This document shows positions 46,511-64,000 of a DNA stretch of 64,000 nucleotides, in pieces; positions within the stretch are counted from its first letter, which is position 1; each line of letters opens with the position of its first letter. The translations under genes and the position numbers were made by a program. Under the pieces are notes generated by a model. That model ran no database searches, was not told where the DNA came from, and saw nothing but the letters and a program-made list of their open reading frames with translations. Source of the stretch: Geomonas subterranea (GTDB lineage: Bacteria; Desulfobacterota; Desulfuromonadia; Geobacterales; Geobacteraceae); NCBI RefSeq assembly GCF_019063845.1, contig NZ_CP077683.1, positions 434,001 to 498,000 of the forward strand, in the 5' to 3' direction.

Positions 46511-47431
46511 ATGAAAGCACTGCTTGTCTGTGAACAGCGGGAAGGGAAATTACTGGATACCAGCTATGAGCTGGTGGCCTTCGCCGAGCGTCTGGGGGCG
46601 GAGGTGAGCCTGGTTCTGGTGGGGAAGCAGGCGCAGGCGCCGCAGGTTGCCGGGAAACTTTACCTGGCGGACGTCGACAAATATGGGGAGTACAGCCCGG
46701 AGCTGCACAAGCACATCGTGCTGGCCGCGGCGCTTAAGGAAAACCCGGACTACATCATCTTCCCGCACTCCTCCTACGGATGGGACCTGGCTCCCAGGGT
46801 GGCCGCGACACTGAGAGTGGGACAGGTCTCCGAGATCGTCAACATCGTGGACGGCCAGCTGGAAGTGAGCCTGTGCAACGGCAAGCTGCGCCGCACCGTG
46901 AGCCCGAAAGGGGCCCGCGCCGTCCTCACCGTCCAGGCTGGTGCCTTCAACTATGCCGGCCAGAAATCCGGTGCCCCGCAGGTGGAGGAGATCGAGATCT
47001 CCCAGGGGAGTTCGGCGCTGCAGTTCGTCGGCTATGAGCCCGCCGAGAAGAAAGAGGTCGACCTCGGGCGCGCCGAGATCATTGTCAGCGCAGGTCGCGG
47101 CGTCGGCAAGAAGGAGAACGTGGGCGTCATCGCCGATCTGGCCAAGGCTTTCGGCGGCGAGCTCGGGGCGAGCCGCCCGGTGGTCGACGCCGGATGGGTC
47201 GGGCACAGCCACCAGGTTGGCACCACCGGCCAGACCGTGTCGCCCAAGCTGTACGTCGCCTGCGGCATCTCCGGTGCCATCCAGCACCTGGCCGGCATGA
47301 AGAAATCCGACTTCATCGTCGCCATAAACAAGGACAAGGACGCCCCCATCAGCGAGGCCGCCGATGTCATGGTGGTGGCCGACGTGCTGCAGCTGGCGCC
47401 GGTCCTGGCCGAGAAGCTGCGCGCCGCGTAA
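46511..47431 (+). CDS. etfA: Electron transfer flavoprotein alpha subunit (second ETF)
   Basis: EtfA of 306 aa without a ferredoxin extension. FAD-binding C-domain: [70 protein letters not shown] precedes the ATG. Forms the second EtfBA pair and ends the electron-transfer operon. Confidence 0.94.
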   Translation: MKALLVCEQREGKLLDTSYELVAFAERLGAEVSLVLVGKQAQAPQVAGKLYLADVDKYGEYSPELHKHIVLAAALKENPDYIIFPHSSYGWDLAPRVAATLRVGQVSEIVNIVDGQLEVSLCNGKLRRTVSPKGARAVLTVQAGAFNYAGQKSGAPQVEEIEISQGSSALQFVGYEPAEKKEVDLGRAEIIVSAGRGVGKKENVGVIADLAKAFGGELGASRPVVDAGWVGHSHQVGTTGQTVSPKLYVACGISGAIQHLAGMKKSDFIVAINKDKDAPISEAADVMVVADVLQLAPVLAEKLRAA

Positions 47432-47449
47432 CGGCACCTGCAGCGGGTG

Positions 47450-47775
47450 GCAACATGAAGGATCCCCTCTCCCTCTGGGAGAGGGTGGCCGGAGGCCGGG
47501 TGAGGGCGTCACTACCGCTAGGGATCCCCTCTCCCTCTGGGAGAGGGTGGCCGGAGGCCGGGTGAGGGCGTTGCTACCGCTGAGGGATTCCCTCTCCCTC
47601 TGGGAGAGGGTGGCCGGAGGCCGGGTGAGGGCGTCGCTACCGCTAGGGATCCCCTCTCCCTCTGGGAGAGGGTGGCCGGAGGCCGGGTGAGGGCGTCGCT
47701 ACCGCTGAGGGATCCCCTCTCCCTCTGGGAGAGGGTGGCCGGAGGCCAGGTGAGGGCGTTGCTGCAGGGCAAGAT
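47450..47775. repeat. Tandem repeat, five copies of a 62-63 bp unit
   Basis: Units start at GATCCCCTCTCCC/GATTCCCTCTCCC at 47461, 47523, 47586, 47648 and 47711. Each contains CCCTCTCCCTCTGGGAGAGGG and the GTGGCCGGAGGCCGGGTGAGGGCGT tail. A further half-element lies at about 47800-47827. Confidence 0.9.
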
Positions 47776-52934: not shown

Positions 52935-52973
52935 TTGACATAAAGTTTTGGAGGGGCTATACACAAGTCTACA
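52935..52973 (+). promoter_or_regulatory. Promoter and TGTAGACT-type site of the Rrf2 sulfur regulator
   Basis: TTGACA (52935-52940), 17 nt, TATACA (52958-52963), a near-consensus sigma-70 promoter. Immediately downstream AGTCTACA (52966-52973) is the exact reverse complement of TGTAGACT at 53493-53500, so a regulator bound here would block transcription. Confidence 0.7.
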
Positions 52974-52991
52974 AAAACGACAGGCTAATGG

Positions 52992-53453
52992 ATGATATCG
53001 AAAAAAACGAAATACGGCCTTAAAGCCCTTATCTATCTTGCGCGGCAGTACGAGCAGGGACCGATCCTGATAGCGGACCTGGCGCGGGACGAGAACATCC
53101 CGAAGAAGTTTTTGGAAGCCATCCTGCTTGCGTTGAAAAACAGCGGTATCCTGCAGAGCCGGAAAGGGAAGGGCGGGGGCTACCACCTGGGGCGGTCCCC
53201 CAGGCAGATCACCATGGGGCAGGCGATCCGGGTGATGGAAGGTCCTCTGGCGCCGGTCCCCTGCGTCAGCGAAACGGCGTACGCCAAGTGTACCGAGTGC
53301 GGCAACGAGAACACCTGCGGCATCCGGCTGGTCATGAAGGACGTGCGCGAGGCCATCGCCAAAATCCTGGACAACACCACCCTGGCCGATGTGCTGGATC
53401 GCATCGAGCACGCTGAACTCTCCGAAAAGAACGTCATCGATTTTTGCATCTGA
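52992..53453 (+). CDS. Rrf2 family regulator (CymR/IscR-like) with four cysteines
   Basis: Protein of 153 aa beginning MISKKTKYGLKALIYLA. The HTH (ILIADLARDENIPKKFLEAILLALKNSGILQSRKGKGGGYHLG) is classical Rrf2. Cysteines C91, C100, C103 and C109 (VPCVSETAYAKCTECGNENTCG) resemble the IscR cluster region but with an extra cysteine. CymR, a cysteine-metabolism repressor that acts with CysK, belongs to this family. Together with adjacent sulfate binding, metK and two cysK genes, a role as sulfur regulator is the best guess. Confidence 0.9.
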   Translation: MISKKTKYGLKALIYLARQYEQGPILIADLARDENIPKKFLEAILLALKNSGILQSRKGKGGGYHLGRSPRQITMGQAIRVMEGPLAPVPCVSETAYAKCTECGNENTCGIRLVMKDVREAIAKILDNTTLADVLDRIEHAELSEKNVIDFCI

Positions 53454-53492
53454 ACAGCAGCACTTTTTTTTGTCTCAATAATCTATCAAATC

Positions 53493-53500
53493 TGTAGACT
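53493..53500 (+). promoter_or_regulatory. TGTAGACT motif before the sulfate-binding protein gene
   Basis: TGTAGACTAAACA at 53493-53505, 24 bp before the ATG, in an AT-rich segment. Shared with 52966-52973 (inverted) and 59403-59409. The core promoter is not clear here. Confidence 0.5.
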
Positions 53501-53523: not shown

Positions 53524-54516
53524 ATGAAGAAAACTATCCGCACCGCACTCGCCACGCTGCTGGTAGCAGCACTCCCCCTCACCGCTTTCGCGGCACAGGA
53601 GTTCCTCAACGTCTCGTATGACCCGACCCGCGAACTGTACCAGGACTTCAACAAGGCCTTCGCCAAAAAAGGGCACTCCAATGTCACCTTCAAGCAGTCC
53701 CACGGCGGCTCCGGCAAGCAGGCCAGGGCGGTGATCGACGGCCTCGAGGCCGACGTGGTAACCCTGGCGCTGGCCTACGATATCGACGAGATCAGCGACA
53801 GGGCGAAGCTCCTCCCGGCCGACTGGCAGAAGAGGCTCCCGAACAACAGCTCTCCCTACACCTCGACCATCGTCTTCCTGGTGCGCAAGGGTAACCCCAA
53901 GAAGATAAAGGACTGGAACGACCTGGTGAAGCCGGGCGTCGCCGTCATCACCCCCAACCCCAAGACCTCCGGCGGTGCGCGCTGGAACTACCTGGCGGCC
54001 TGGGCCTACGCCCTGAAGCAGAAAGGGGGGAATGAGGCGAAAGCGAAGCAGTTCGTATCCGAACTCTTCAAGCACGTACCGGTGCTCGATTCCGGTGCTC
54101 GCGGCGCCACCACCACCTTCGTGCAGCGCGGCCAGGGCGACGTGCTTCTCGCCTGGGAGAACGAGGCCTTCCTCGCGGTGAACGAACTGGGCAAGGACAA
54201 GTTCGAGATCGTGGTTCCCTCGCTGAGCATCCTGGCCGAGCCGCCTGTTGCCGTGGTGGACAAGGTCGTCGACAAGAAGGGGACCAGGAAGCTTGCCGAG
54301 GAGTACCTGAAATACCTCTACTCGACGGAAGGGCAGGAGATCGCCGCCAAGCATTATTACCGTCCGCGCGACAAGAAGGTGGCGGCCAAGTACGCCAAGG
54401 TGTTCCCCAAGGTGAAGCTGGTAACCATCGACGACACCTTCGGCGGCTGGCGCAAGGCACAGAAGACACATTTCGCCGACGGCGGGGTGTTCGACCAGAT
54501 CTACAGCGCAAAGTAG
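53524..54516 (+). CDS. Sulfate/thiosulfate ABC transporter substrate-binding protein
   Basis: Periplasmic protein of 330 aa (Sbp/CysP family). Signal peptide [23 protein letters not shown] with cleavage before [20 protein letters not shown]. Family signatures: [66 protein letters not shown]. Binds sulfate or thiosulfate for an inner-membrane permease. No cysT, cysW or cysA follows; instead yezD and metK do. AAAAGGAG precedes the ATG. Confidence 0.93.
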
Positions 54517-54551: not shown

Positions 54552-54707
54552 ATGAAAACGGTACCCGAACAACCTGGCAAATGGAGTAAGGAACTCGAGC
54601 AGAGGCTCCGCCTCGCACTCCAAGACCTGCGCTTCGGGACGGTCACCCTCGTGGTCCAGGACGGCAAGGTCATTCAGCTCGATAAGAACGAAAAGATCAG
54701 GATTTAG
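54552..54707 (+). CDS. YezD family (DUF2292) small protein, copy 1
   Basis: Protein of 51 aa: MKTVPEQPGKWSKELEQR followed by the family core LRFGTVTLVVQDGKVIQLDKNEKIRI. YezD-type proteins are short, of unknown biochemical function, and often sit near sulfur-assimilation genes. GGAGGGAG precedes the ATG. The first of three copies within 5 kb. Confidence 0.85.
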   Translation: MKTVPEQPGKWSKELEQRLRLALQDLRFGTVTLVVQDGKVIQLDKNEKIRI

Positions 54708-54714
54708 AAGATAG

Positions 54715-54835
54715 CAGCGAGCCCGGCGGTGCCCTGAGAGGGGGGCGCCGGTACACCCGACACAAACCCTGTCGCCGACCAGACAAACTGGAGGCCAGGC
54801 CGTAACCGGATGCACGGTTATGCCTGGCCTTTTTT
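54715..54835 (+). promoter_or_regulatory. Structured leader with intrinsic terminator before metK (attenuator)
   Basis: Successive hairpins: CCGGCG(G)TGCCC with GGGGGCGCCGG (about 54723-54751), CGACA/TGTCG (about 54758-54774), CCAG-ACAAA-CTGG (54779-54791), then the terminator AGGCCAGGC (54792-54800) / GCCTGGCCT (54822-54830) with inner TAACCG/CGGTTA and T-run 54830-54835. The metK ATG is only 35 bp past the T-run, leaving no room for a separate promoter, so metK must be transcribed by read-through. It does not match SAM riboswitch classes I know; ligand unknown. Confidence 0.72.
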
Positions 54836-54870
54836 GTTGCCGCCGGCCAGTTCCAGAGGAGGAAGCACCC

Positions 54871-56079
54871 ATGTCCAAGCAGCGATTTCTGTTCACCTCC
54901 GAATCCGTCACCGAGGGGCACCCCGACAAGCTGGCGGACCAGGTTTCCGACGCCATCCTCGACGCCCTGCTGGCACAGGATCCCCATGCCCGCGTCGCCT
55001 GCGAGACCAGCGTGACCACTGGGCTTGTGCTGTTGTTCGGTGAGGTCTCCAGCTCGGCTCAGGTCAACTTCGCCCGCATCGCCCGCGACACCATCGCCCG
55101 AGTCGGCTACACCGACGCGAAGTACGGCCTGGACGCGGAACACGCCGCGGTCCTGGTTTCTCTGGACCAGCAGTCGGCCGACATCGCCCAGGGGGTAGAC
55201 GTTGCGCTGGAGCAGAGAAAGGGGGCGGAGCACGACGGCTACCTCGACTCGGTGGGGGCGGGGGACCAGGGGATGGTCTTCGGTTTTGCCACCGACGAGA
55301 CTCCCGAATACCTCCCCACCAGCATCGCCCTGGCCCACAAGCTGGCCCGGCGGCTCACCGAGGCGCGCAAGTCCGGCGAGATCCCCTACCTGCGCCCCGA
55401 CGGCAAGACCCAGGTAACCGTGGAATATGAAGGGGATGTTCCGGTCCGGGTGGACACGGTGGTCATCTCGGCCCAGCACGACCCGGAGGTGGAGCTCGAA
55501 CAGATCCGCGCCGACCTGATCGCAAAGGTGATCGGGCCGGTGATCCCCGAGGCGCTCCTGGACGCGCAGACCCGCATCTTCGTCAACCCGACCGGTCGCT
55601 TCGTGATCGGCGGACCGCACGGCGACGCCGGCCTCACCGGCAGGAAGATCATCGTGGACAGCTACGGCGGCTTCTCGCGCCACGGCGGCGGCGCGTTCTC
55701 GGGCAAGGACTCCACCAAGGTGGACCGCTCCGGCGCGTACGCGGCCCGCTACGTTGCGAAGAATCTGGTCGCGGCGGGGTTGGCAAAGAAGGTCGAGGTC
55801 CAGATCGCCTACGCCATCGGCGTCGCCCGCCCGGTCTCCATCTTCGTCGACAGCTTCGGGACCGGGGCCTTGGCCAACGAGGAACTGGCCGGACTGATCG
55901 CGCGCCACTTCGACCTGCGGCCTGCTGCCATCATCGAGCAGCTCGACCTCAGGCGTCCCATCTACCGCGACACGGCAGCCTACGGCCACTTCGGCAGGCT
56001 CGATCTCGATCTCCCCTGGGAGCGGACCGACAAGGCGGATCTCCTGCGGCAGGCGGCGCGCGGCGTGGCGGTCAACTGA
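54871..56079 (+). CDS. metK: S-adenosylmethionine synthetase
   Basis: Protein of 402 aa from ATG 54871 (AGGAGGAAG upstream; frame open 17 codons earlier through the terminator). Signatures: [41 protein letters not shown] (methionine/ATP binding), FGGAFSG-type loop [23 protein letters not shown], and [18 protein letters not shown]. Makes SAM from methionine and ATP. Being placed in a sulfur/cysteine island behind an attenuator suggests sulfur-responsive control. Confidence 0.97.
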
Positions 56080-56179
56080 AAGCATCCTGATCGGCCGGCC
56101 GTGTAGAACCTGTGCTTCACCGCCAGCCAACGGCGCACCGTGCTGCGCTTGGGCATGAAACAGTAAAAGGAGGCGCCAC

Positions 56180-57007
56180 ATGGCCGGACAACATCTCATC
56201 ATCGTAGGGAAAAGCGGCGTCGGCAGGTCCACCGTCGCGGCCAATGTGGGCGCCGCCCTGGCGGAAACGGGGCGCCGGGTGCTGCTGATCGGTTACGACA
56301 ACCACAGGAGTTCGGCGGGCAACCTGAGCGGAGGCAGCGAGCTGAAGGCGCTGCCGCTCTGGGGGCACGGGGAGGAGCCACCCCTTTATGCGCACGGCTA
56401 CCGCGGCGCCCTATGCCTGGAAGCGGGGGGAGGCGTTGCGGAGGACGAAGCCGCGCAGGCGGCTCTTTGGGCCCATCCCCTGGTCGCGGCTTTTCAGCCG
56501 GAATTCGTGCTGCATGACGTAGCCTGGGAGCCCTGCGGCACCTTCCGTCTCCCGGTGGGAATCGACGGCGTTGCCAGTATCCTGGCGGTCACCTCCGCCG
56601 ACCGTTGCGCGCTGCAGGCGGTTAACGGGCTCTTCGGCTGGCTCAACACGGTCGCCGCCGCCAATGCCAGGCTGGGAGGCGTGGTGGCCAACAACCTTAC
56701 GGGGCCGTTGCAGGAGGCGATCGTGTCCGATTTCGCCGGCCAGACCGGAGCTTCGGTCACGGCGACCATCCCGCATTCCATCATGGTTTCGGTAAGCGAC
56801 TTTTACAGCCAGACGCTGCTCGAGTCCGCCCCCTTCTCCCACGTCACCTACGCCTACCGCAAGCTGGCGAAAACGCTGGTCGAGGCGGCGACGCAGCGCC
56901 GTCCCCGGCAGCTTGACGACGAAGCCATGAGGAAGTGGTCCGCGAAGTGGGGTGACATCATCGCCGAGCTCGAGACCGGCGTGGTGAACGGCGGACTCGG
57001 GATCTAG
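56180..57007 (+). CDS. Degenerate NifH-like P-loop protein
   Basis: Protein of 275 aa, clearly homologous to the NifH-like protein at 59771 (shared ends [24 protein letters not shown] and DKQLHEWALKWADTLLAIETGEV). Its nucleotide site is altered: GKSGVGRST instead of GKGGIGKST, and GYDNHRSSA instead of GCDPKSDST. Of the two cluster cysteines of NifH, the first (GCAGRG context) is lost and only C119 (EPCGTFRLP) remains. It is unlikely to be a normal [4Fe-4S] reductase; a regulatory or heteromeric partner is possible. AAGGAGG precedes the ATG; cysK follows after 17 bp. Confidence 0.85.
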
Positions 57008-57024
57008 ACAAGGAGGATGCCGAG

Positions 57025-57972
57025 ATGTCACGCATTTATGACAGCCTTACCGAGCTCATCGGAGCCACGCCCCTGCTGCGCCTGAACCGTTTCGCAGCCG
57101 GTGCCGGGGCGGAAGTCCTGGCCAAACTGGAAGCCTTCAACCCCGGAGGGAGCGTCAAGGACCGCATCGGCTACGGCATGCTCATCGAGGCGGAAAAGCA
57201 GGGACTCATCGACCAGGATACCGTCATCATCGAGCCCACCAGCGGCAATACCGGTATCGCGCTCGCCATGGTGGCGGCGGTGCGCGGCTACCGGCTGGTG
57301 TTGACCATGCCCGACTCGATGAGCGTCGAGCGTCGCAACCTGCTCAAGGCCTACGGGGCCGAACTTGTTCTCACCCCGGGGGCGCAGGGGATGAAAGGAC
57401 CGATGGACGCAGCCGAGGAGCTGGCGGCCCGCATCCCCAATTCGTTCGTGCCTTCGCAGTTCAAGAACAAGGCGAACGCCGCCATCCATCGAGCCACCAC
57501 CGCCGACGAGATCTGGCAGGACACGGACGGCAAGGTGGACATCGTGGTGGGAGGGGTGGGGACCGGCGGCACGCTCACCGGCGTCGGGGAAGCGTTGAAG
57601 GCCCTCAACCCGAAGGTACGGGTCATCGCGGTCGAGCCCTTCGAGTCGCCGGTGCTCTCGGGAGGCATGCCGGGCCCGCACGGCATCCAGGGGATCGGCT
57701 CCGGGTTCATCCCCGAGGTGCTGAACCTGGAGATCGTCGACGAGATCTTGAGGGTGAGGTCGAGTGAGGCGATCGATGCCAGCCGGCGCCTGGCCAAGGT
57801 GGAGGGGGTGCTGGCCGGCATCTCGGGAGGGGCCGCGGTCCATGCAGCCTGTCTCGTCGCGGAACGTCCGGAGAACCGCGGCAAGCGCATCGTGGTGGTG
57901 CTGCCGGACACGGGCGAGCGCTACTTGTCGACTCCGTTGTTCAGCCAGCCCCAGGGGGGGGCGGCTGCATAA
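57025..57972 (+). CDS. cysK: Cysteine synthase (O-acetylserine sulfhydrylase), copy 1
   Basis: PLP enzyme of 315 aa. The PLP lysine lies in [14 protein letters not shown], substrate loop in [16 protein letters not shown], phosphate-binding [15 protein letters not shown], and C-terminal [10 protein letters not shown]. Catalyses O-acetylserine plus sulfide to cysteine. AAGGAGG upstream. In the same unit as the degenerate NifH homologue and a second cysteine synthase. Confidence 0.93.
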
Positions 57973-58014
57973 ACAATCACTGTGGACTACAACCCAACAC
58001 GAGGAGGGAGCATC

Positions 58015-58968
58015 ATGGGAAACATTTTTAACGACAATTCGCTTTCGATCGGCAACACGCCGCTGGTTAAGCTGAACCACGTGACCGGCGACGCCAAGGC
58101 CACTGTCCTGGCCAAGGTCGAGGGACGCAACCCGGCCTACTCGGTGAAGTGCCGCATCGGGGCCAACCTGATCTGGGACGCCGAGAAAAGGGGCGTGCTG
58201 AAGTCCGGCGTCGAGATCGTCGAGCCCACTTCCGGCAATACCGGTATCGCCCTTGCCTACGTGGCGGCCGCCCGCGGCTACCGGCTCACCCTTACCATGC
58301 CCGATACCATGAGCATCGAGCGGCGCCGCGTGCTGGCCGCCCTCGGGGCGAACCTGATCCTGACCCCCGGTGCGGAGGGGATGAAGGGTGCCATCAAGAA
58401 GGCGGAGGAGATCGCCGCTTCCGAGCCGGCACGCTACTTTATCCCGCAACAGTTCAAAAACCAGGCGAACCCCGCCATACACGAAAGCACCACCGGCCCG
58501 GAGATCTGGAACGACACCGACGGCGCGATCGATGTCCTCGTGGCCGGTGTCGGCACCGGGGGGACCATCACGGGCGTCTCGCGCTACCTGAAGAAAACGA
58601 AGCAGAAGCAGATTCTGTCCGTTGCCGTCGAACCAAAGGAGAGCCCGGTTATCAGCCAGGCACTGGCCGGGGAAGAGCTCAAGCCCGGTCCGCACAAGAT
58701 CCAGGGAATCGGCGCCGGGTTCATCCCCGACACCCTTGACCTTACCCTCGTGGACCAGGTGGAGCAGGTGAGCAGCGATGAGGCCCTGGAGTTCGCCAAA
58801 AGGCTCGCCCGGGAGGAGGGGCTCCTGGTCGGCATCTCCTCCGGCGCCGCGGCCGCGGCCGCCGTGCGCCTGGCGCAGCGTGACGAGTTCGCCGGCAAGA
58901 CCATCGTGGTGGTGCTGCCCGACGGCGCCGAGCGTTATCTCTCCACGGCGCTCTTCGAGGGAATCTGA
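58015..58968 (+). CDS. Cysteine synthase, copy 2 (enterobacterial CysK-like)
   Basis: PLP enzyme of 317 aa from ATG 58015 (GAGGAGGGAG upstream). The PLP lysine context is [22 protein letters not shown], as in enterobacterial CysK, and differs from copy 1 (GGSVKDRIG). [34 protein letters not shown] and [11 protein letters not shown] are intact. Substrate preference may differ from copy 1 (for example thiosulfate or another nucleophile), which sequence alone cannot decide. Stop overlaps the yezD copy 2 start (ATGA). Confidence 0.93.
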
Positions 58969-59150
58969 TGAGCGCGCAGAGTCCAGACCCATGGAACCCG
59001 GAACTCGAACAGATTATCAGGGACCTGCTGGTCTCGTTGCGCTTTGGGACGCTCACCCTGGTGGTCCAGGACGGGCGCGTGATCCAGGTGGACAGAAGTG
59101 AAAAGTACCGCCTCAACAAACCCGGTCACATAGACGGCAGCGGTATCTGA
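58968..59150 (+). CDS. YezD family (DUF2292) small protein, copy 2
   Basis: Protein of 60 aa: ELEQIIRDLLVSLRFGTLTLVVQDGRVIQVDRSEKYRLN. Closely similar to copy 1 in the core. Translationally coupled to the second cysteine synthase, the strongest context clue that YezD proteins work with cysteine synthesis or sulfide. Confidence 0.87.
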   Translation: MSAQSPDPWNPELEQIIRDLLVSLRFGTLTLVVQDGRVIQVDRSEKYRLNKPGHIDGSGI

Positions 59151-59199
59151 AACTGGACTTTTGGGGTTCATCGCGGAATTTCGGGGTGGGCCATTGTTC

Positions 59200-59330
59200 A
59201 CGGCTCCCCCTCCCTTGACGGGAGGGGGACGGGGGGTGGGTGAAGCCGCAACCAGCGGAAATGATGGCATCTCCCCCCACCCCCATACCCCCTCCCGCAA
59301 GGGGAAGGGGCAGCTGCAGGCTGCCCCCGG
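59200..59330. repeat. Inverted GC-rich repeat
   Basis: GGCTCCCCCTCCCTTGACGGGAGGGGGACGGGGGGTGGGTGAAGCCGCAA (from about 59202) with the facing CCCCATACCCCCTCCCGCAAGGGGAAGGGG. Same compound element as at 41246-41355. Confidence 0.8.
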
Positions 59331-59358
59331 AATTGTCTGCAGAGCCTATTTTTTTCCG

Positions 59359-59387
59359 TTGACAAAGTAGCTTCTATCATATATACC
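59359..59387 (+). promoter_or_regulatory. Sigma-70 promoter of the yezD3-nifH-like-transporter operon
   Basis: TTGACA (59359-59364), 17 nt, TATACC (59382-59387), matching in spacing the promoter at 52935 (TTGACA, 17 nt, TATACA). GTAGACTAAA at 59403-59412 lies just downstream, as at the other two sites of this motif. Confidence 0.72.
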
Positions 59388-59402
59388 TTGTCCATCGTTT
59401 CA

Positions 59403-59409
59403 GTAGACT
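59403..59409 (+). promoter_or_regulatory. GTAGACT motif in the leader
   Basis: AGTAGACTAAAGG, one base short of the TGTAGACT seen at 53493 and (inverted) 52966. Candidate operator of the Rrf2 regulator encoded at 52992. Confidence 0.5.
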
Positions 59410-59418
59410 AAAGGCTCA

Positions 59419-59467
59419 CCGGAAAAACCGGAGGCCAAAGGACCTGCTCCTTTGGCCTCTTTTTTTT
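59419..59467 (+). terminator. Intrinsic terminator 1 of tandem attenuator
   Basis: Mini-hairpin CCGG-AAAAA-CCGG (59419-59431), then an 11-bp perfect stem GAGGCCAAAGG (59431-59441) / CCTTTGGCCTC (59449-59459) and eight T residues (59460-59467). Lies about 70 nt after the promoter, upstream of a second terminator. Confidence 0.85.
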
Positions 59468-59494
59468 GCACTCACATATCGTCGTACTGGTTGA

Positions 59495-59542
59495 CTGGAA
59501 ATACCGGAGACCGGCTGCAGATTATCTGCACCGGTCTTTTTT
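59495..59542 (+). terminator. Intrinsic terminator 2 of tandem attenuator
   Basis: Mini-hairpin CTGG-AAATA-CCGG (59495-59507), then AGACCGG (59508-59514) + TGCAGA (59516-59521) pairing with TCTGCA (59525-59530) + CCGGTCT (59531-59537), and a T-run to 59542. The yezD3 ATG is 16 nt further on, so any expression of yezD3 needs read-through of this terminator. Confidence 0.85.
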
Positions 59543-59558
59543 CGTTTTTGGAGGGTGC

Positions 59559-59744
59559 ATGAGCAACGCGAGCAGGATCATCAGGAAAAGGGGAGGGGAC
59601 CAGAACATCGAGGCGATCCACAAGGTGACCGACCTCCTCAAGACGGTCCATTACGGGTCCATCACCCTGCATATCCAGGCAGGGAAGGTCTACCAGATAA
59701 ACAGAACCGAGAGCCGCAGGCTTGCCGCCGCGGCCCTTGACTAA
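59559..59744 (+). CDS. YezD family (DUF2292) small protein, copy 3
   Basis: Protein of 61 aa from ATG 59559 (GGAGGG upstream). Core: VTDLLKTVHYGSITLHIQAGKVYQINRTESRRL, more diverged than copies 1 and 2 and with a basic N-terminus (SNASRIIRKRGG). Preceded by the tandem terminators and followed after 26 bp by the NifH-like gene. Confidence 0.85.
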   Translation: MSNASRIIRKRGGDQNIEAIHKVTDLLKTVHYGSITLHIQAGKVYQINRTESRRLAAAALD

Positions 59745-59770
59745 GCCAACACACAAAAGGAGCCAACGAC

Positions 59771-60649
59771 ATGTCCGGTAAAAAAGTGAAAACCATCGCC
59801 ATCTACGGCAAGGGGGGGATCGGCAAGTCCACCACCACCTCCAACATCAGCGCGGCTCTCGCGGCCTCGGGCCTCAAGGTGATGCAGATCGGCTGCGACC
59901 CGAAGAGCGACTCCACCACCACCCTGCGCGGCGGAGGGTACATCCCCACCATCCTCGACACCCTGCGCGAGAAGAAGAACGTGAAGCTCGACGAGGTGGT
60001 GTTCCGCGGCTTCGCCGGCATCTACTGCGTCGAGGCGGGCGGACCCGCCCCGGGCGTCGGCTGCGCCGGCCGCGGCATCATCACCTCGGTGGAACTGTTG
60101 AAGCAGCTGCGCGTCTTCGAGGAGCTCGATCTCGACATCGTGGTCTACGACGTCCTCGGGGACGTGGTCTGCGGCGGCTTCGCGGTGCCGGTGCGCGAGG
60201 GGATCGCCGACCATGTCTTCACGGTTTCCTCCTCGGACTTCATGGCCATCTACGCGGCCAACAACCTCTTCAAGGGGATCCAGAAGTACTCCAACAACGG
60301 CGGTGCGCTCCTGGGCGGGGTGATCGCCAACTCCATGAACTCCGACTACCACAAGGCGATCATCGACGACTTCGTGGAGAACACCCAGACCCAGGTGGTC
60401 GAGTATGTCCCGCGCTCGGTCACAGTAACCCAGTCCGAGCTGCAGGGTAAAACGACCATCGAGGCCTTCCCCGATTCCGACCAGGCCAAGGTGTACCGCG
60501 CTCTCGCGGACAGGATCTACAACCACTCCGACTCGAAAGTGCCCACGCCGCTGAACGACAAGCAGTTGCACGAATGGGCCCTCAAATGGGCCGACACCCT
60601 GCTCGCCATCGAGACCGGCGAGGTGAGAAGCAGCGGCGCCAGCATCTAG
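59771..60649 (+). CDS. NifH-like ATP-dependent reductase
   Basis: Protein of 292 aa of the NifH/BchL superfamily with all functional residues: P-loop GKGGIGKST (residues 13-21), GCDPKSDST, cluster cysteines C98 (GVGCAGRG) and C134 (DVVCGGFAVP), equivalent to C97/C132 of nitrogenase Fe protein. No nifD/nifK-like gene is within the window; genes for sulfonate-type uptake follow directly. NifH-like proteins of this sort act in nitrogenase-like systems, including methylthio-alkane reductase that salvages sulfur. The sulfur context fits such a role, but the electron acceptor is unknown. AAAGGAG precedes the ATG. Confidence 0.9.
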   Translation: MSGKKVKTIAIYGKGGIGKSTTTSNISAALAASGLKVMQIGCDPKSDSTTTLRGGGYIPTILDTLREKKNVKLDEVVFRGFAGIYCVEAGGPAPGVGCAGRGIITSVELLKQLRVFEELDLDIVVYDVLGDVVCGGFAVPVREGIADHVFTVSSSDFMAIYAANNLFKGIQKYSNNGGALLGGVIANSMNSDYHKAIIDDFVENTQTQVVEYVPRSVTVTQSELQGKTTIEAFPDSDQAKVYRALADRIYNHSDSKVPTPLNDKQLHEWALKWADTLLAIETGEVRSSGASI

Positions 60650-60723
60650 CCTGCAAGTGGGGGGGCGATGCCCCGCGAGACCGGCGCGGTTCCCGCGCCG
60701 GACACCAATTTCCGGAGGAGATT

Positions 60724-61590
60724 ATGGACGGAATCATCTATACGCCGGTGCGGGAGAAGACGGTTGAAGGGGAGGCGGCGAGCGCCGCGGCGCGAGGAAG
60801 CCACTTCCATCTGCCTGATTTCGTGCTGCGGCTGAACGATCGGCTGCTCGACTGGTACGGACTCGCGCTGTTGCTGGCCCTGTGGGAGATCGCCCCCCGC
60901 CTGGGGTGGATCGACATCCAGTTTTTCCCTCCTCCTTCGCTGATCGTCGAGGAGGGGGTGAAACTGGCTTCCCGGGGCGAGCTGCTGGCACAGATCACCT
61001 CGAGCCTCGCGCGTCTGTTGCAGGGGCTCTCGGCGGCGCTCGCGGTTGGCATTCCCGCCGGCTTCGTCCTCGGGGGGTGGTACCCGCGCCTCACCCACTT
61101 CCTGCGGCCGCTGCTGCGCCTTTTCGGGCAGATCAACGCCTTTTCGCTCTTCCCGCTCTTCGTGCTCTTCTTCGGGATCGGGGAGCTGGCCAAGTTCGCG
61201 GTGATCTTCTGGTCCTGCCTCTGGCCCATCCTCTTCACCACCATCTCCGGGGTGCAGAACGTGGACCCGCTCTTCGTCAAGGTGGCGCGCTCCATGGGGT
61301 GCGGCAGGTTGAGGCTCTTCTCCCGGGTGCTCTTGCCCGGAGCGCTTCCCTCCATCTTCACCGGGGTGCGCCTCGGGGCCACGGTCGCCTTCCTGATGCT
61401 GATCGCGGCGGAGATGATCGGAGCCAACGCGGGGCTTGGGTGGCTCGTGCACAACTCGTCCACCAACTACGTGATCCCGCGCCTGTACCTGGCCGCCGCG
61501 CTGATCGCCCTGCTGGGGCTGGGCATGAACTCGGCCATCCACTTCGTCGAGGCGCGGGTCGTCGCCTGGCGCCAGTCCGTCGAAGTCTAA
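60724..61590 (+). CDS. ABC transporter permease (SsuC/TauC type), copy 1
   Basis: Membrane protein of 288 aa from ATG 60724 (GGAGGAG upstream). BPD-type permease with about six helices and the EAA-like loop AKFAVIFWSCLWPILFTTISGVQNVDPLFVKVARSMGCGRLRLFSRVLLPGALPSIFTGVRLG. An extra soluble N-terminal stretch of about 35 residues precedes the first helix. Transports an organosulfur compound or similar together with the next three genes. Confidence 0.9.
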   Translation: MDGIIYTPVREKTVEGEAASAAARGSHFHLPDFVLRLNDRLLDWYGLALLLALWEIAPRLGWIDIQFFPPPSLIVEEGVKLASRGELLAQITSSLARLLQGLSAALAVGIPAGFVLGGWYPRLTHFLRPLLRLFGQINAFSLFPLFVLFFGIGELAKFAVIFWSCLWPILFTTISGVQNVDPLFVKVARSMGCGRLRLFSRVLLPGALPSIFTGVRLGATVAFLMLIAAEMIGANAGLGWLVHNSSTNYVIPRLYLAAALIALLGLGMNSAIHFVEARVVAWRQSVEV

Positions 61591-61604
61591 AGGAGGAAGC
61601 TACC

Positions 61605-62408
61605 ATGCCGCAAGAACAGATAACCGACCGGCGGGGGGGATGGCTGACCCGCCACCTGGACAAGCTCTCCATCCTTCTCTTCTTCGCCGCCTGGCAGGCC
61701 GCGCCTCAACTGGGGGGAATCGTCGAGACCTTCATTGCCCCGCCGACCCTGGTGCTGAAGACCCTGTACGAGATGTTCCAGGCCGAAGAGCTGCTGCCGT
61801 CCATCGGCGTCAGCCTGTTCCGCTCCGCCACCGGATTTTTCCTGGCCGCCGCTGTCGCCATTCCGCTGGGCTTCCTGCTGGGGGGGAGCTTCAGGACCTT
61901 CGAGCGCCTGGTGAACCCGGTGCTCCGCTTCCTCGGACAGGTGAACCCCTTCTCGCTCTTCCCGCTCTTCATCCTCATCTTCGGGATCGGCGAGATGTCC
62001 AAGGTGGCCATGATCTTCTGGGTCTGCATCTGGCCCATCCTCTTCAACACGGTGAACGGGGTGAAGCAGATCGACCCGCTCTTGGTGAAGTCGGCGCGTT
62101 CCATGGGGTGCGGCGTGGCAACGCTGTTCTTCCGGGTCATCCTCCCCGCGGCCTCCCCCGGCATCTTCCATGGCCTCAAGATGGGGTGCGGCACCGCCTT
62201 CTTCATGCTCATCGCCGCCGAGATGATCGGAGCGAGCGCCGGGCTCGGCTGGCTGGTCTGGAACGCCCAGATCAACTTCCAGATGCCGCAGCTTTTCGCG
62301 GCCACCGTGCTCATCTCCACCCTCGGCCTGATCCTGAACCACTCCTTCGCCCTCCTGGAGGGGAAACTGGTGGGGTGGAAGCAGCGATCCATTACCGAGA
62401 ATTTCTGA
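61605..62408 (+). CDS. ABC transporter permease (SsuC/TauC type), copy 2
   Basis: Membrane protein of 267 aa from ATG 61605 (AAAGGAGG upstream), similar to the previous permease across the whole length (SKVAMIFWVCIWPILFNTVNGVKQIDPLLVKSARSMGCGVATLFFRVILPAASPGIFHGLKMG). The tandem pair suggests a heterodimeric channel, whereas SsuC/TauC normally form homodimers. Confidence 0.9.
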   Translation: MPQEQITDRRGGWLTRHLDKLSILLFFAAWQAAPQLGGIVETFIAPPTLVLKTLYEMFQAEELLPSIGVSLFRSATGFFLAAAVAIPLGFLLGGSFRTFERLVNPVLRFLGQVNPFSLFPLFILIFGIGEMSKVAMIFWVCIWPILFNTVNGVKQIDPLLVKSARSMGCGVATLFFRVILPAASPGIFHGLKMGCGTAFFMLIAAEMIGASAGLGWLVWNAQINFQMPQLFAATVLISTLGLILNHSFALLEGKLVGWKQRSITENF

Positions 62409-62530
62409 CGCGGCACTCAGGCGGAATCACCCTGGCGGCAGGGGGCGTCAAGAAGAATGATCACAGCGACAAATAAAGAAGAACTGCCGCCGGCAAAAAC
62501 AGATGCCGGTGCATCCAAGGAGGAAGGACC

Positions 62531-63601
62531 ATGAACGTATCGAGGAAAAATGTGGTACTGGCCGCACTGGCGGTGGTTGTGGCGGCAGCGTCGATTTTCG
62601 CCGGGACCGGCAACGGGCAGGCCGCGACCAAAAAGCAGCTGGTCGAGATCAAGACCTGGACCAGGAAGGACTGTTCGCTCGCCCCCTGGCTGGTCACGGA
62701 GAAGCTGGGATTTTTCGAGCAGGAGGGTGTGAAGCTCGTCTACACCGGCGAGACGCAGGCCCCGCTGCAGATCCCGTCCCTGGTGAAGGGGAACAACGAC
62801 GTGGGGAGCGGGCATCCAAACCAGTACGGCATCGCCATCGCCGGCGGCGCCAAGCTGAAGGCGGTGGTGCGGGCCGGGGTCGAGCCGGCGCCTTCCTACG
62901 ATCCCAAGTTCCGCCACATGTGGTGGTTCGTCAACCCGGCCAAGCATCCCAACGTGAAGAGCTTCGCCGACCTGAAGAACCTGCCGGGCAAGATCAAGGT
63001 CTCCACCATCACCAAGAACATCTGCGCCGACTTCGAGACCAACATCCTGGCGGAGAAGTACGGGGTGCCCAAAGAGAAGATCGAGTGGGTAACCATGCCG
63101 GACATCCAGGCCATCCAGGCGCTGAAGCAGGGGCTGGTCGACGTCGCGCCGGTGCACCCCCCGTTCTACAAGGGGATGCTGGACGCGAAGGCGATCAAGG
63201 TGGCGGACTCCACCGACACGGGGCTCGGCTCCGCGGCCGGACTCTCCTACTACTGGTTCACCGAGGACTTCATCAAGAAGCACCCGGAGGCGGTGGCCGG
63301 TTTCGTGAGGGCGATCAAGCGCGGACAGCGCTGGGCCAACGCCAACCCCGACAAGACCGCCAAGTGGGTCGAGGAGGTGATCGGCGTGCCGGTGACCGGC
63401 AACCACTACTACTCCGAGGACGCCACCATCGTCGAGAAAGAGATCGTCCCCTGGATCAAGGGGGTCGAGGATGCCAAGGTCATCCCCAAGGGGAAGATCA
63501 CCCCGGCTTCCATCGTGACGCACCAGTTCGAGGCGGTGGGCAACGACGACAAGGCCTACCAGAACAAGCTGAAGCAGGGCGCGAAGAAGAAAAAGGCATA
63601 A
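62531..63601 (+). CDS. ABC transporter substrate-binding protein (SsuA/TauA/NMT1-like)
   Basis: Periplasmic protein of 356 aa. Signal peptide about residues 1-32 (MNVSRKNVVLAALAVVVAAA...GQAA). Core: RKDCSLAPWLVTEKLGFFEQEGVKLVYTGETQAPLQIPSLVKGNNDVGSGHPNQYGIAIAGGAKLKAV, typical of NMT1/sulfonate-binding proteins; the C-terminus is a lysine run (KQGAKKKKA). Substrate not determinable. AAGGAGGAAG upstream. Confidence 0.88.
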   Translation: MNVSRKNVVLAALAVVVAAASIFAGTGNGQAATKKQLVEIKTWTRKDCSLAPWLVTEKLGFFEQEGVKLVYTGETQAPLQIPSLVKGNNDVGSGHPNQYGIAIAGGAKLKAVVRAGVEPAPSYDPKFRHMWWFVNPAKHPNVKSFADLKNLPGKIKVSTITKNICADFETNILAEKYGVPKEKIEWVTMPDIQAIQALKQGLVDVAPVHPPFYKGMLDAKAIKVADSTDTGLGSAAGLSYYWFTEDFIKKHPEAVAGFVRAIKRGQRWANANPDKTAKWVEEVIGVPVTGNHYYSEDATIVEKEIVPWIKGVEDAKVIPKGKITPASIVTHQFEAVGNDDKAYQNKLKQGAKKKKA

Positions 63602-63614
63602 CAGGAGGCAACTC

Positions 63615-64000
63615 ATGGCAACGGCTGCAAGTAACGCAAAGATCGAGATCAGGGGCATCCACCGCGTCTTCCCGGCCCGAAACCGTGGCCGGGGGGACAG
63701 CCCCAAGGAGTTCGTGGCGCTCAAGGACGTGAGCCTCCAGGTGCAAAAAGGGGAGTTCCTCGCCATCGTGGGGCCCTCGGGGTGTGGCAAGTCGACACTC
63801 CTGGACATCCTGGCCGGGCTCGCCAAGCCGAGCTCGGGGGAGATCTTCATCGACGGCAGGAAGGTGACCGGGCCGGCCCTGGACCGCGGCATCGTGCTGC
63901 AGGGATACGCGCTCTTCCCGTGGCGCACGGTGCGCCAGAACGTGGAATTCGGCCTGGAGATAAAGAAGGTTCCCAAGGGCGAGCGCCGCGCCGTCAGCGA
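63615..64000 (+). CDS. ABC transporter ATP-binding protein (SsuB/TauB type), partial at window edge
   Basis: First 128 codons of an ATPase; continues beyond the window. Walker A is GPSGCGKSTLLD near residue 57, the Q-loop is GIVLQGYALFPWRTVRQNVEFGL, identical in style to nitrate/sulfonate/taurine transporter ATPases. CAGGAGG precedes the ATG. Completes the transporter begun at 60724. Confidence 0.9.
   Translation, partial: MATAASNAKIEIRGIHRVFPARNRGRGDSPKEFVALKDVSLQVQKGEFLAIVGPSGCGKSTLLDILAGLAKPSSGEIFIDGRKVTGPALDRGIVLQGYALFPWRTVRQNVEFGLEIKKVPKGERRAVS

Follow-up and report, generated by a model that had tools for sequence, protein, structure and literature searches.

The stretch of DNA analysed here, referred to as the window, comprises 64,000 nucleotides (nt) of the chromosome of Geomonas subterranea (434,001-498,000 of a single-contig genome of 4.99 Mb), and its right end carries a run of genes in the order rrf2, sbp, yezD1, metK, degH, cysK1, cysK2, yezD2, yezD3, marH, two permease genes, a binding-protein gene and an ATPase gene. 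Two of them encode homologues of NifH: degH (56180..57007, +; PF00142, 89.6 bits), a degenerate NifH-like gene without cluster ligands as judged from its residue table and tree, and marH (59771..60649, +; PF00142, 343 bits), which encodes an intact reductase of the nitrogenase type. Around them stand metK, coding for S-adenosylmethionine synthetase (54871..56079, +; PF00438, PF02772, PF02773), and two cysteine synthase genes, cysK1 (57025..57972, +; TIGR01139, 447 bits), which starts 17 nt after degH, and cysK2 (58015..58968, +; TIGR01139, 470 bits), both scoring over the cut-off. The gene set from which a first-pass annotation had started, namely two NifH-like proteins, metK, two cysteine synthases, three YezD proteins and an importer, is all present here, and the window would hold the left end of a sulfur-scavenging regulon reaching from 486,992 to ~553,000 on the chromosome, in a host that also carries a nif set.

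The same annotation had called DegH degenerate for its altered P-loop and one lost cluster cysteine, a description that holds and can be refined, as both Cys97 and Arg100 are gone and in effect both cluster-ligand sites are lost. The P-loop reads GKSGVGRST in place of GKGGIGKST, the Walker A lysine having become an arginine. In the alignment, all 21 sequences of the degH clade lack a cysteine at the Cys97 position, have an empty Cys132 position and are missing the docking residue Arg100; a cysteine beside the Cys132 position occurs in the DegH of this genome and in none of the other 20 members, and the DegH of locus L059 has a cysteine four columns off the Cys97 position. The nearest solved relative of DegH is MarH (expectation value, E, 2.9e-34; best NifH 1e-19).

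The search for degH covered 141 genomes of the order, of which 52 matched at E 1e-20 including cross-hits to MarH, with rows above 1e-20 dropped; 40 stretches around the matches were taken, and a tree of 55 H proteins was computed, in which the tree program flagged long branches. DegH forms a clade of 21 sequences from 20 of the 141 genomes, with members in two families and support of 100/100. Fourteen further NifH paralogues, here termed type B, group with it, and the branch that separates this operon clade (35 proteins) from MarH, other NflH and NifH (20 proteins) is again supported at 100/100; the phylogeny of both homologues, which the first-pass annotation had proposed as a check, places them on opposite sides of this split. 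At 12 key sites of NifH the 20 true reductases show no variation. Within the operon clade, Arg100 is found in 2 of 35 members and both cluster cysteines in 11 of 35; of the 34 members that cover the site of the Walker lysine, 12 have another residue there (Arg in three, Val in three, Thr in five, Ser in one), and all 35 retain the switch II Asp125 and Cys85. Losing the cluster does not go together with losing the Walker lysine, as five type-B proteins have the cluster ligands and a threonine for the lysine, and 14 of the 20 degH-clade members covering the site have the lysine and no cluster. Such varied losses make it unlikely that a function shared by all 35 would be ATP-driven electron transfer, although, against a uniform picture of the clade, six type-B proteins keep the lysine and both cysteines and could still be redox-active. 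The type-B paralogues (L070, L075, L076, L079-L086, L088, L089) lie mostly near sulfur genes, 11 of 14 loci having an importer, CysK or MetK gene no more than six genes away, and those with cluster cysteines and no Walker lysine represent a second pattern of degeneration. At L066 (genome G005) degH and a type-B paralogue share one sulfur locus, beside a corrinoid methyltransferase cluster. Among 395 genomes of a phylum sample no further member was found above 300 bits; a search of plasmids gave two records with distant matches of 29%, and a scan of genome contigs with the degH alignment gave, among the matches listed, only distant P-loop proteins (25-51% identical to the query over parts of its length, at E no better than 2e-9).

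The surroundings of degH are those of sulfur assimilation. Within six genes of degH at 20 loci we counted a sulfate importer 16 times, YezD 14, Rrf2 12, NifB/MarB eight, CysK and MetK seven each, corrinoid-cluster genes six and NflDK two; an importer, CysK or MetK gene neighbours degH at 18 of the 20 loci, the exceptions being L060, near a contig end, and L066, and the simplest arrangement is sbp-degH-cysTWA (L059). MarH of 77% identity or more occurs in at least 27 of the 141 genomes, two of these as fragments, and in 12 of the 20 with degH (one a contig-end fragment), leaving eight degH genomes without MarH of at least 77% identity. Genes resembling NifD and NifK (DK-like) were searched for in 16 of the 20 degH genomes, and in seven of them (G031, G032, G036, G039, G042, G043, G044) only Nif-type matches of 135-146 bits were obtained, on a scale where NflD exceeds 300; each of the seven also gave a single MarH match, at NifH level. 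Neither MarH nor MarDK-like genes were therefore found at the thresholds used in seven degH genomes, one of which is a single contig rated 100% complete and another only 85% complete. One of the seven, G039, does have a MarB-like gene (L053). No degH match was found in five congeners, and an Sbp probe of eleven degH-less relatives found Sbp in seven, with no YezD or degH at those seven loci.

Six comparisons gave degH ratios of nonsynonymous to synonymous substitution rates (dN/dS) of 0.14-0.26, indicating purifying selection; the corresponding values are 0.02-0.15 for MarH, 0.05-0.06 for Sbp, 0.03-0.10 for MetK and 0.18-0.33 for CysK1. A pseudogene is not favoured, given the open frame, the orthologues in 20 of 141 genomes and these ratios.

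The intact homologue keeps its cluster and nucleotide residues at 12 of 12 key sites, and its nearest solved relative is MarH of the methylthio-alkane reductase (Mar) of R. rubrum (9fmg_D, E 8e-144). Partners of the NifD/K type, which the first-pass annotation expected just beyond the window, do exist: four NifDK-like pairs and a NifB/MarB-like gene lie 16-49 kb to its right. Matches to PF00148 occur at 12 places in the genome; four adjoin a third, true nifH (1,340,279-1,347,309) and are read as the nif D/K/E/N set, and the other eight make up the four pairs, at 514-524 kb and 544-547 kb. Near these pairs are found a radical S-adenosylmethionine (SAM) protein of the NifB type without NifX domain (279 amino acids; NCBIfam NifB 310.6 bits, cut-off 343.65), two NifX-like proteins, four methyltransferases of the URO-D family (MtaA type), a corrinoid protein, a RACo activase and further NMT1-type binding proteins, with CysT/W/A-type genes and a third CysK at 533.8-538.3 kb, named by sequence and context alone. 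MarH and MarB are adjacent at L050, L051, L052, L054 and L056; here they stand about 30 kb apart (chromosome 494.7-524.2 kb), and the importers and three DK pairs between them look like an insertion.

All four D proteins keep three P-cluster cysteines, the cofactor cysteine and the axial histidine, and all four K proteins three cysteines, so that the ligands of the P-cluster and of the [Fe8S9C]-cluster are retained in every pair. D3 and K3 are nearest to MarD and MarK (E 2.4e-110 and 6e-132; 40% and 49% identical), and in alignment with the R. rubrum proteins they keep the six P-cluster cysteines, Cys270, His429 and Arg428. MarD is also the best solved match of D1, D2 and D4, which are 41-48% identical among themselves and 30-33% identical to MarD and D3; they have Gly-His instead of Arg428-His429, the arginine of the Arg-His pair being found only in D3. 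This pair has been proposed as a possible hallmark in the part of the Mar structure paper drawn on here (PMC12552129). The island thus shares with the MarBHDK system (9fmg/9d9u; PMC12552129) MarH-like and MarB-like proteins and, in D3/K3, eight cluster ligands with the Arg-His pair; it differs in three extra DK pairs without the arginine, in a single MarH that appears to serve four DK pairs, and in the added degenerate NifH lineage, operator and leader RNA. The isethionate reductase Isr (IsrBHDK; PMC11423573) is, in the portion of its description used here, likewise a nitrogenase-like enzyme with a radical SAM protein and a sulfonate-type importer for sulfur assimilation. However, IsrD there has a single P-cluster cysteine and no cofactor ligands, whereas D1-D4 have three cysteines plus the cofactor cysteine and histidine, and an Isr identity was rejected because Isr lacks most of the P-cluster and cofactor ligands that D1-D4 keep.

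Genes like MarHDK beside corrinoid methyltransferase clusters have been described before, according to the sections of PMC10418091 consulted: Type I mlp clusters with MarHDK-like genes of group IV-A share with the island a corrinoid protein, methyltransferases of URO-D/MtaA type, RACo, DK-like genes and cysK, although those sections mention no degenerate NifH, operator or leader RNA. A corrinoid protein, SCMT-type methyltransferases and RACo, the set by which a Type I mlp cluster is recognised, are found at 546962-551636, where the domains PF02310/PF02607, PF01208 and PF14574/PF17651 occur. Removal of sulfur from organic compounds is the probable task of the island's nitrogenase relatives, and a single MarH and a single MarB with four MarDK-like pairs, seen as genes, would constitute nitrogenase-like reductases of C-S bonds. 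The organosulfur reduction and assimilation system envisaged in the first-pass annotation hence stands at the gene level in its Mar-type part (MarH, four DK pairs, a MarB-like gene), and an obligatory pairing of DegH with MarH does not, as seven genomes hold degH with no MarH or MarDK-like gene found.

Expression of the island is argued to be sulfur-linked from its operator and, in part, its leader RNA, which are common with sulfate-importer operons. The Rrf2-family regulator (52992..53453, +; PF02082, 131 bits) is CymR-like, scoring 96.5 bits against the NCBIfam CymR model (NF047409, cut-off 195) and 64.9 bits, also below cut-off, against IscR. It shares with CymR and other Rrf2 cysteine regulators the superfamily, a closer fit to the CymR than to the IscR model and an association with sulfur operons, and differs in falling below the CymR cut-off and in its palindrome. 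Regions upstream of Rrf2 orthologues have in common a TTGAC and the palindrome CTAY-N7-RTAG, and a matrix was built from 15 hand-copied sites in Rrf2 upstream regions of other genomes only, poor or short sites being excluded. Within 120 kb around the island, seven sites exceed 18 bits and one other, of 14.4 bits, lies outside the island; three first-order resamplings reached maxima of 14.6, 11.4 and 13.9 bits. The sites stand before rrf2 (52966..52986, 21.5 bits, with TTGACA and TATACA just 5′), before sbp (53480..53500, 27.9 bits, the top site scanned), in the promoter of yezD3-marH (59389..59409, 18.7 bits, with TTGACA and TATATA just 5′), before cysT, between marB and nifXa, 435 nt before nifXb and 228 nt before ssuA5. 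The gene sbp (53524..54516, +; PF13531, 143 bits) encodes what we take from sequence and context to be a sulfate-type substrate-binding protein, with CysT/W/A-type genes nearby in relatives. In relatives the operator lies near -16 of rrf2, where the matrix was trained, and, independently, mostly about 30 nt before sbp. A sequence-only operator model was too weak for genome use, giving three matches genome-wide with E 1.4-2.7 at two of the island sites. Judged by eye, the palindrome stands 3′ of the -10 element in some promoters and 5′ of -35 in others, such as that of ssuA5, and because of this varied placement the regulator may both repress and activate.

The leader of the yezD3-marH transcript contains two terminator-like hairpins 3′ of the promoter (fold z-score -4.7), and its core recurs at other loci. 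In the window the element is found before metK-degH (54770..54837, +; model R2, 54.8 bits; terminator and antiterminator folds) and as a tandem before yezD3, the first copy at 59410..59465 (+; model R2, E 2.7e-16 over the whole genome) and the second at 59486..59544 (+; E 6.1e-8), whose altered letters are compatible with both folds. Of 28 rows, 23 entered an alignment; the five left out are a near-duplicate at L065, an incomplete copy at L083 and, lacking the motif, two sequences of L060 and one of L073. In this alignment the stem CCRG-AAAAA-CYGG and the terminator stem have 99.6% of cells paired and 34 double-change cells, a level reached in 0 of 500 shuffles, and an alternative stem of the 5′ GCU with GGC has 99.4% of cells paired. 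A larger alignment of 108 matches (102 distinct), which is fitted to the model and hence leans to the terminator fold and not to the alternative, gave 99.3% paired cells with 161 double changes for the terminator fold and 99.4% with 45 double changes for the alternative, each at 0 of 500 shuffles. Columns 5/27/84 of the 102 sequences read G/C/G in 90, A/U/A in four, A/U/G in three, A/C/G in two, G/U/A in two and G/U/G in one, co-changes of the kind that a strand paired in both states should produce. The element thus has two covarying stems that exclude each other, in the manner of an attenuator or riboswitch, and the leader RNA is apparently an undescribed terminator/antiterminator switch.

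Eight copies in this genome have E below 1e-7, and every one of them lies within 488,770-551,808, that is, in the island, those right of the window being at chromosome positions 525102 (-), 525170 (-), 525507 (+), 536691 (+) and 551739 (+); a ninth copy (3.6e-5) falls within the same range, and four weaker matches lie outside. With model R2, run under stricter filters over the 141 genomes of the order and the 395 of the phylum, the element was found in 90 of 141 genomes at E 0.01 and in none of the five degH-less congeners at that level; 23 genomes of the phylum sample match at E 0.001, and outside the order five are below 1e-8 (G166, G350, G488, G219, G376), that of G166 lying 3.3 kb from a NifH-like gene. 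Counted over the window, its flanks and the loci of relatives, 82 copies score at least 28 bits, and the next gene is metK in 10, NifH-like in 13 (degH in four), NifX-like in nine, NifB/MarB-like in seven, CysK in three, YezD in three, another island homologue in nine and unclassified in 20, with none called within 600 nt in eight. Pfam matches of nine of the unclassified genes were rhodanese (two), methyltransferase, NlpA lipoprotein, radical SAM, DsrE, MFS and MMPL, with one giving no match, and one further neighbour is a prismane protein. Three proteins of 414-424 amino acids 3′ of the element (L089:648-1901, L078:15202-16443, L072:2346-3617) look alike by eye, that of L078 having no Pfam match. 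The element mostly lies 5′ of a gene start (median distance 50 nt; 74 copies have a called gene downstream, at no more than 150 nt in 62 of them), and for 42 of the 82 copies the 160 nt before the element contain an operator above 14 bits.

A known riboswitch identity was rejected, as no Rfam 15 family reached its gathering threshold in the window. With the limit relaxed to E 10, the marH leader met only Spot 42, ylbH and a long non-coding RNA model, all far below cut-off. Among five further loci a single match covered the element, the small RNA BjrC68 at L211 (24.2 bits, cut-off 39; E 0.014), which we take as a shared terminator shape, although a distant kinship is possible and would count against the novelty of the element. 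The arrangement resembles known riboswitches and protein-controlled attenuators (S-box, SAM-II, tandem THI) in its terminator/antiterminator leader, sometimes in tandem and often before metK, but unlike these it has no Rfam 15 match at threshold. In the parts of the sources used here, Geobacter S-box elements precede metIC and metX (PMC545781) and two rare Geobacter motifs precede other genes (yjbM, nifV; PMC11109978); to both the leader RNA was compared by placement and not by structure.

The small YezD proteins accompany this RNA. YezD1 (54552..54707, +; DUF2292, OscA-like), YezD2 (58968..59150, +) and YezD3 (59559..59744, +) match PF10055 over cut-off with 62, 56.2 and 43.6 bits. Across loci, 37 of 88 NifH-like genes outside the Nif type have YezD immediately 5′ of them, at no more than 300 nt, and the leader RNA follows YezD within 350 nt in at least 31 of 95 cases and precedes it in two among the matches listed. 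Counting related genomes as independent and taking E below 1e-8 as a strong RNA, 60 of 64 genomes with YezD have one against 11 of 77 without, and YezD tracks the RNA even where NifH-like genes are lacking, since among genomes without NflH the figures are 11 of 15 with YezD and 9 of 73 without. Two genomes, G008 and G118 (88% complete), have five and seven RNA copies and no YezD match. On these grounds we entertain the hypothesis that YezD is an RNA-binding factor. In Pseudomonas, oscA is clustered with components of a sulfate ATP-binding cassette (ABC) transporter and answers sulfur stress, as reported in the part of PMC2996968 drawn on, so that the DUF2292 family and the sulfate-transport setting are shared; the difference is that YezD1, the only YezD scored against the OscA model (NF033785), reached 32.5 bits, below the cut-off of 85, and that YezD here flank NifH-like genes and the leader RNA. 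The predicted structure of YezD1, computed from an alignment of window proteins only, is poor (predicted local distance difference test score, pLDDT, 63.6).

The account that we hold, with slightly better than even confidence, is one of a sulfur-scavenging regulon with Mar-type reductases, controlled by Rrf2 and a leader RNA, in which DegH serves as regulator or adaptor. Such a regulon would bring together sulfate import (Sbp, CysTWA), several importers of organosulfur type, cysteine synthases, corrinoid methyltransferases and nitrogenase-like reductases; the Rrf2-family protein would act through the shared palindrome, and the leader RNA, favoured by sequence and covariation, would add control in response to a putative signal. 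DegH would represent a separate conserved lineage of the sulfate-importer operon, and most likely it no longer transfers electrons because the [4Fe-4S] ligands and the docking arginine are gone. That it binds ATP in a NifH fold and regulates sulfate import or cysteine synthesis, or serves these as an adaptor, is a tentative proposal, to which we give somewhat less than even weight. Several points weigh against it. It is a best guess drawn from losses, context and selection; where Mar is present, DegH could act on Mar, and since all seven Mar-less degH genomes hold nitrogenase-type D/E and NifH genes, a nitrogenase partner is possible. Four congeners (G033, G035, G037, G038) have sbp-cysTWA without degH in a patchy clade, the dN/dS of degH is above those of MarH, Sbp and MetK (though not CysK1), and the predicted structure of DegH, again from window proteins only, is poor (pLDDT 54.7). 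A more ambitious version, which we regard as doubtful, sees an undescribed class of two-state leader RNA read by a YezD/OscA antiterminator, and cluster-less, ATP-binding Fe-protein switches through which the sulfate importer or cysteine synthase would be informed of sulfur status.

If DegH instead paired with MarH as a heterodimer, or docked as a decoy on MarDK, it would tune the C-S reductase. MarH does occur in 12 of the 20 degH genomes, the two genes are adjacent at L052, L054 and L056, where degH comes right after the leader RNA, and MarH is the best solved match of DegH, but we judge this reading unlikely, as eight of 20 degH genomes are without MarH of the identity used, seven of these without a detected MarDK-like gene, and the docking arginine is missing throughout the clade. 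As a general function the heterodimer is rejected, since degH is kept in those seven genomes, and DegH would for the same reason not be an obligate half of it. Faster evolution of the DegH protein than of MarH, Sbp and MetK, the loss of cluster and Walker residues in differing combinations in the wider clade and the five congeners without a match would suit a relic on its way out, held by linkage to sulfate genes; we nevertheless find this quite improbable in view of the low dN/dS, the lack of an internal stop among the matches listed, the spread over two families and the invariant residues outside the lost sites. NifH itself works in cofactor assembly, and DegH might be a P-loop carrier or chaperone handing metal clusters or precursors to MarDK-like enzymes, which would agree with the NifB/MarB-like gene adjoining some degH (L053, L063, L064, L065), yet degH also occurs in genomes where MarDK was not found, and we give this idea little credence. 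Regarding the leader, the terminator stem and T-run, and fold evidence that is computational throughout, leave room for a strong intrinsic terminator between operons and no regulatory switch. We consider this rather improbable, because the element has a conserved 5′ GCUGACC and a second stem using the same GGCC strand, changes at column 27 accompany those at columns 5 and 84, and it usually stands 5′ of a gene start, several copies in this genome being 3′ of promoter and operator elements.

With the account of a regulon in which DegH is a regulator or adaptor, nitrogenase-like sulfur reductases, small YezD/OscA proteins and an Fe-protein lineage without its redox centre would be joined in one system, and confirmation of the leader RNA would establish a new class of regulatory RNA with clear sulfur targets (metK, cysK, nifB/marB and NifH-like genes). 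What is new here is the NifH lineage conserved without its cluster, together with the operator and the leader RNA, the Mar-type reductases being of a known kind; no published description of the three new parts was found in a search that reached few subscription papers, so that their absence from print is unproven. A practical consequence is that NifH-family matches near sulfur genes need a residue check before a nitrogenase or Mar identity is assigned to them.

To the right of marH the window ends in genes of an ABC importer: two presumed permeases (60724..61590, + and 61605..62408, +; both from the gene call), a substrate-binding protein of NMT1/sulfonate type (62531..63601, +; PF09084, 61.2 bits) and a presumed ATPase (63615..64000, +; gene call) that runs past the window end, the functions of permeases and ATPase being our reading of the sequence. 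Apart from the island, intergenic repeats at about 47430-47700 of the window consist of one short unit repeated several times in reading frames, PLSLWERVAGGRVRA in translation.

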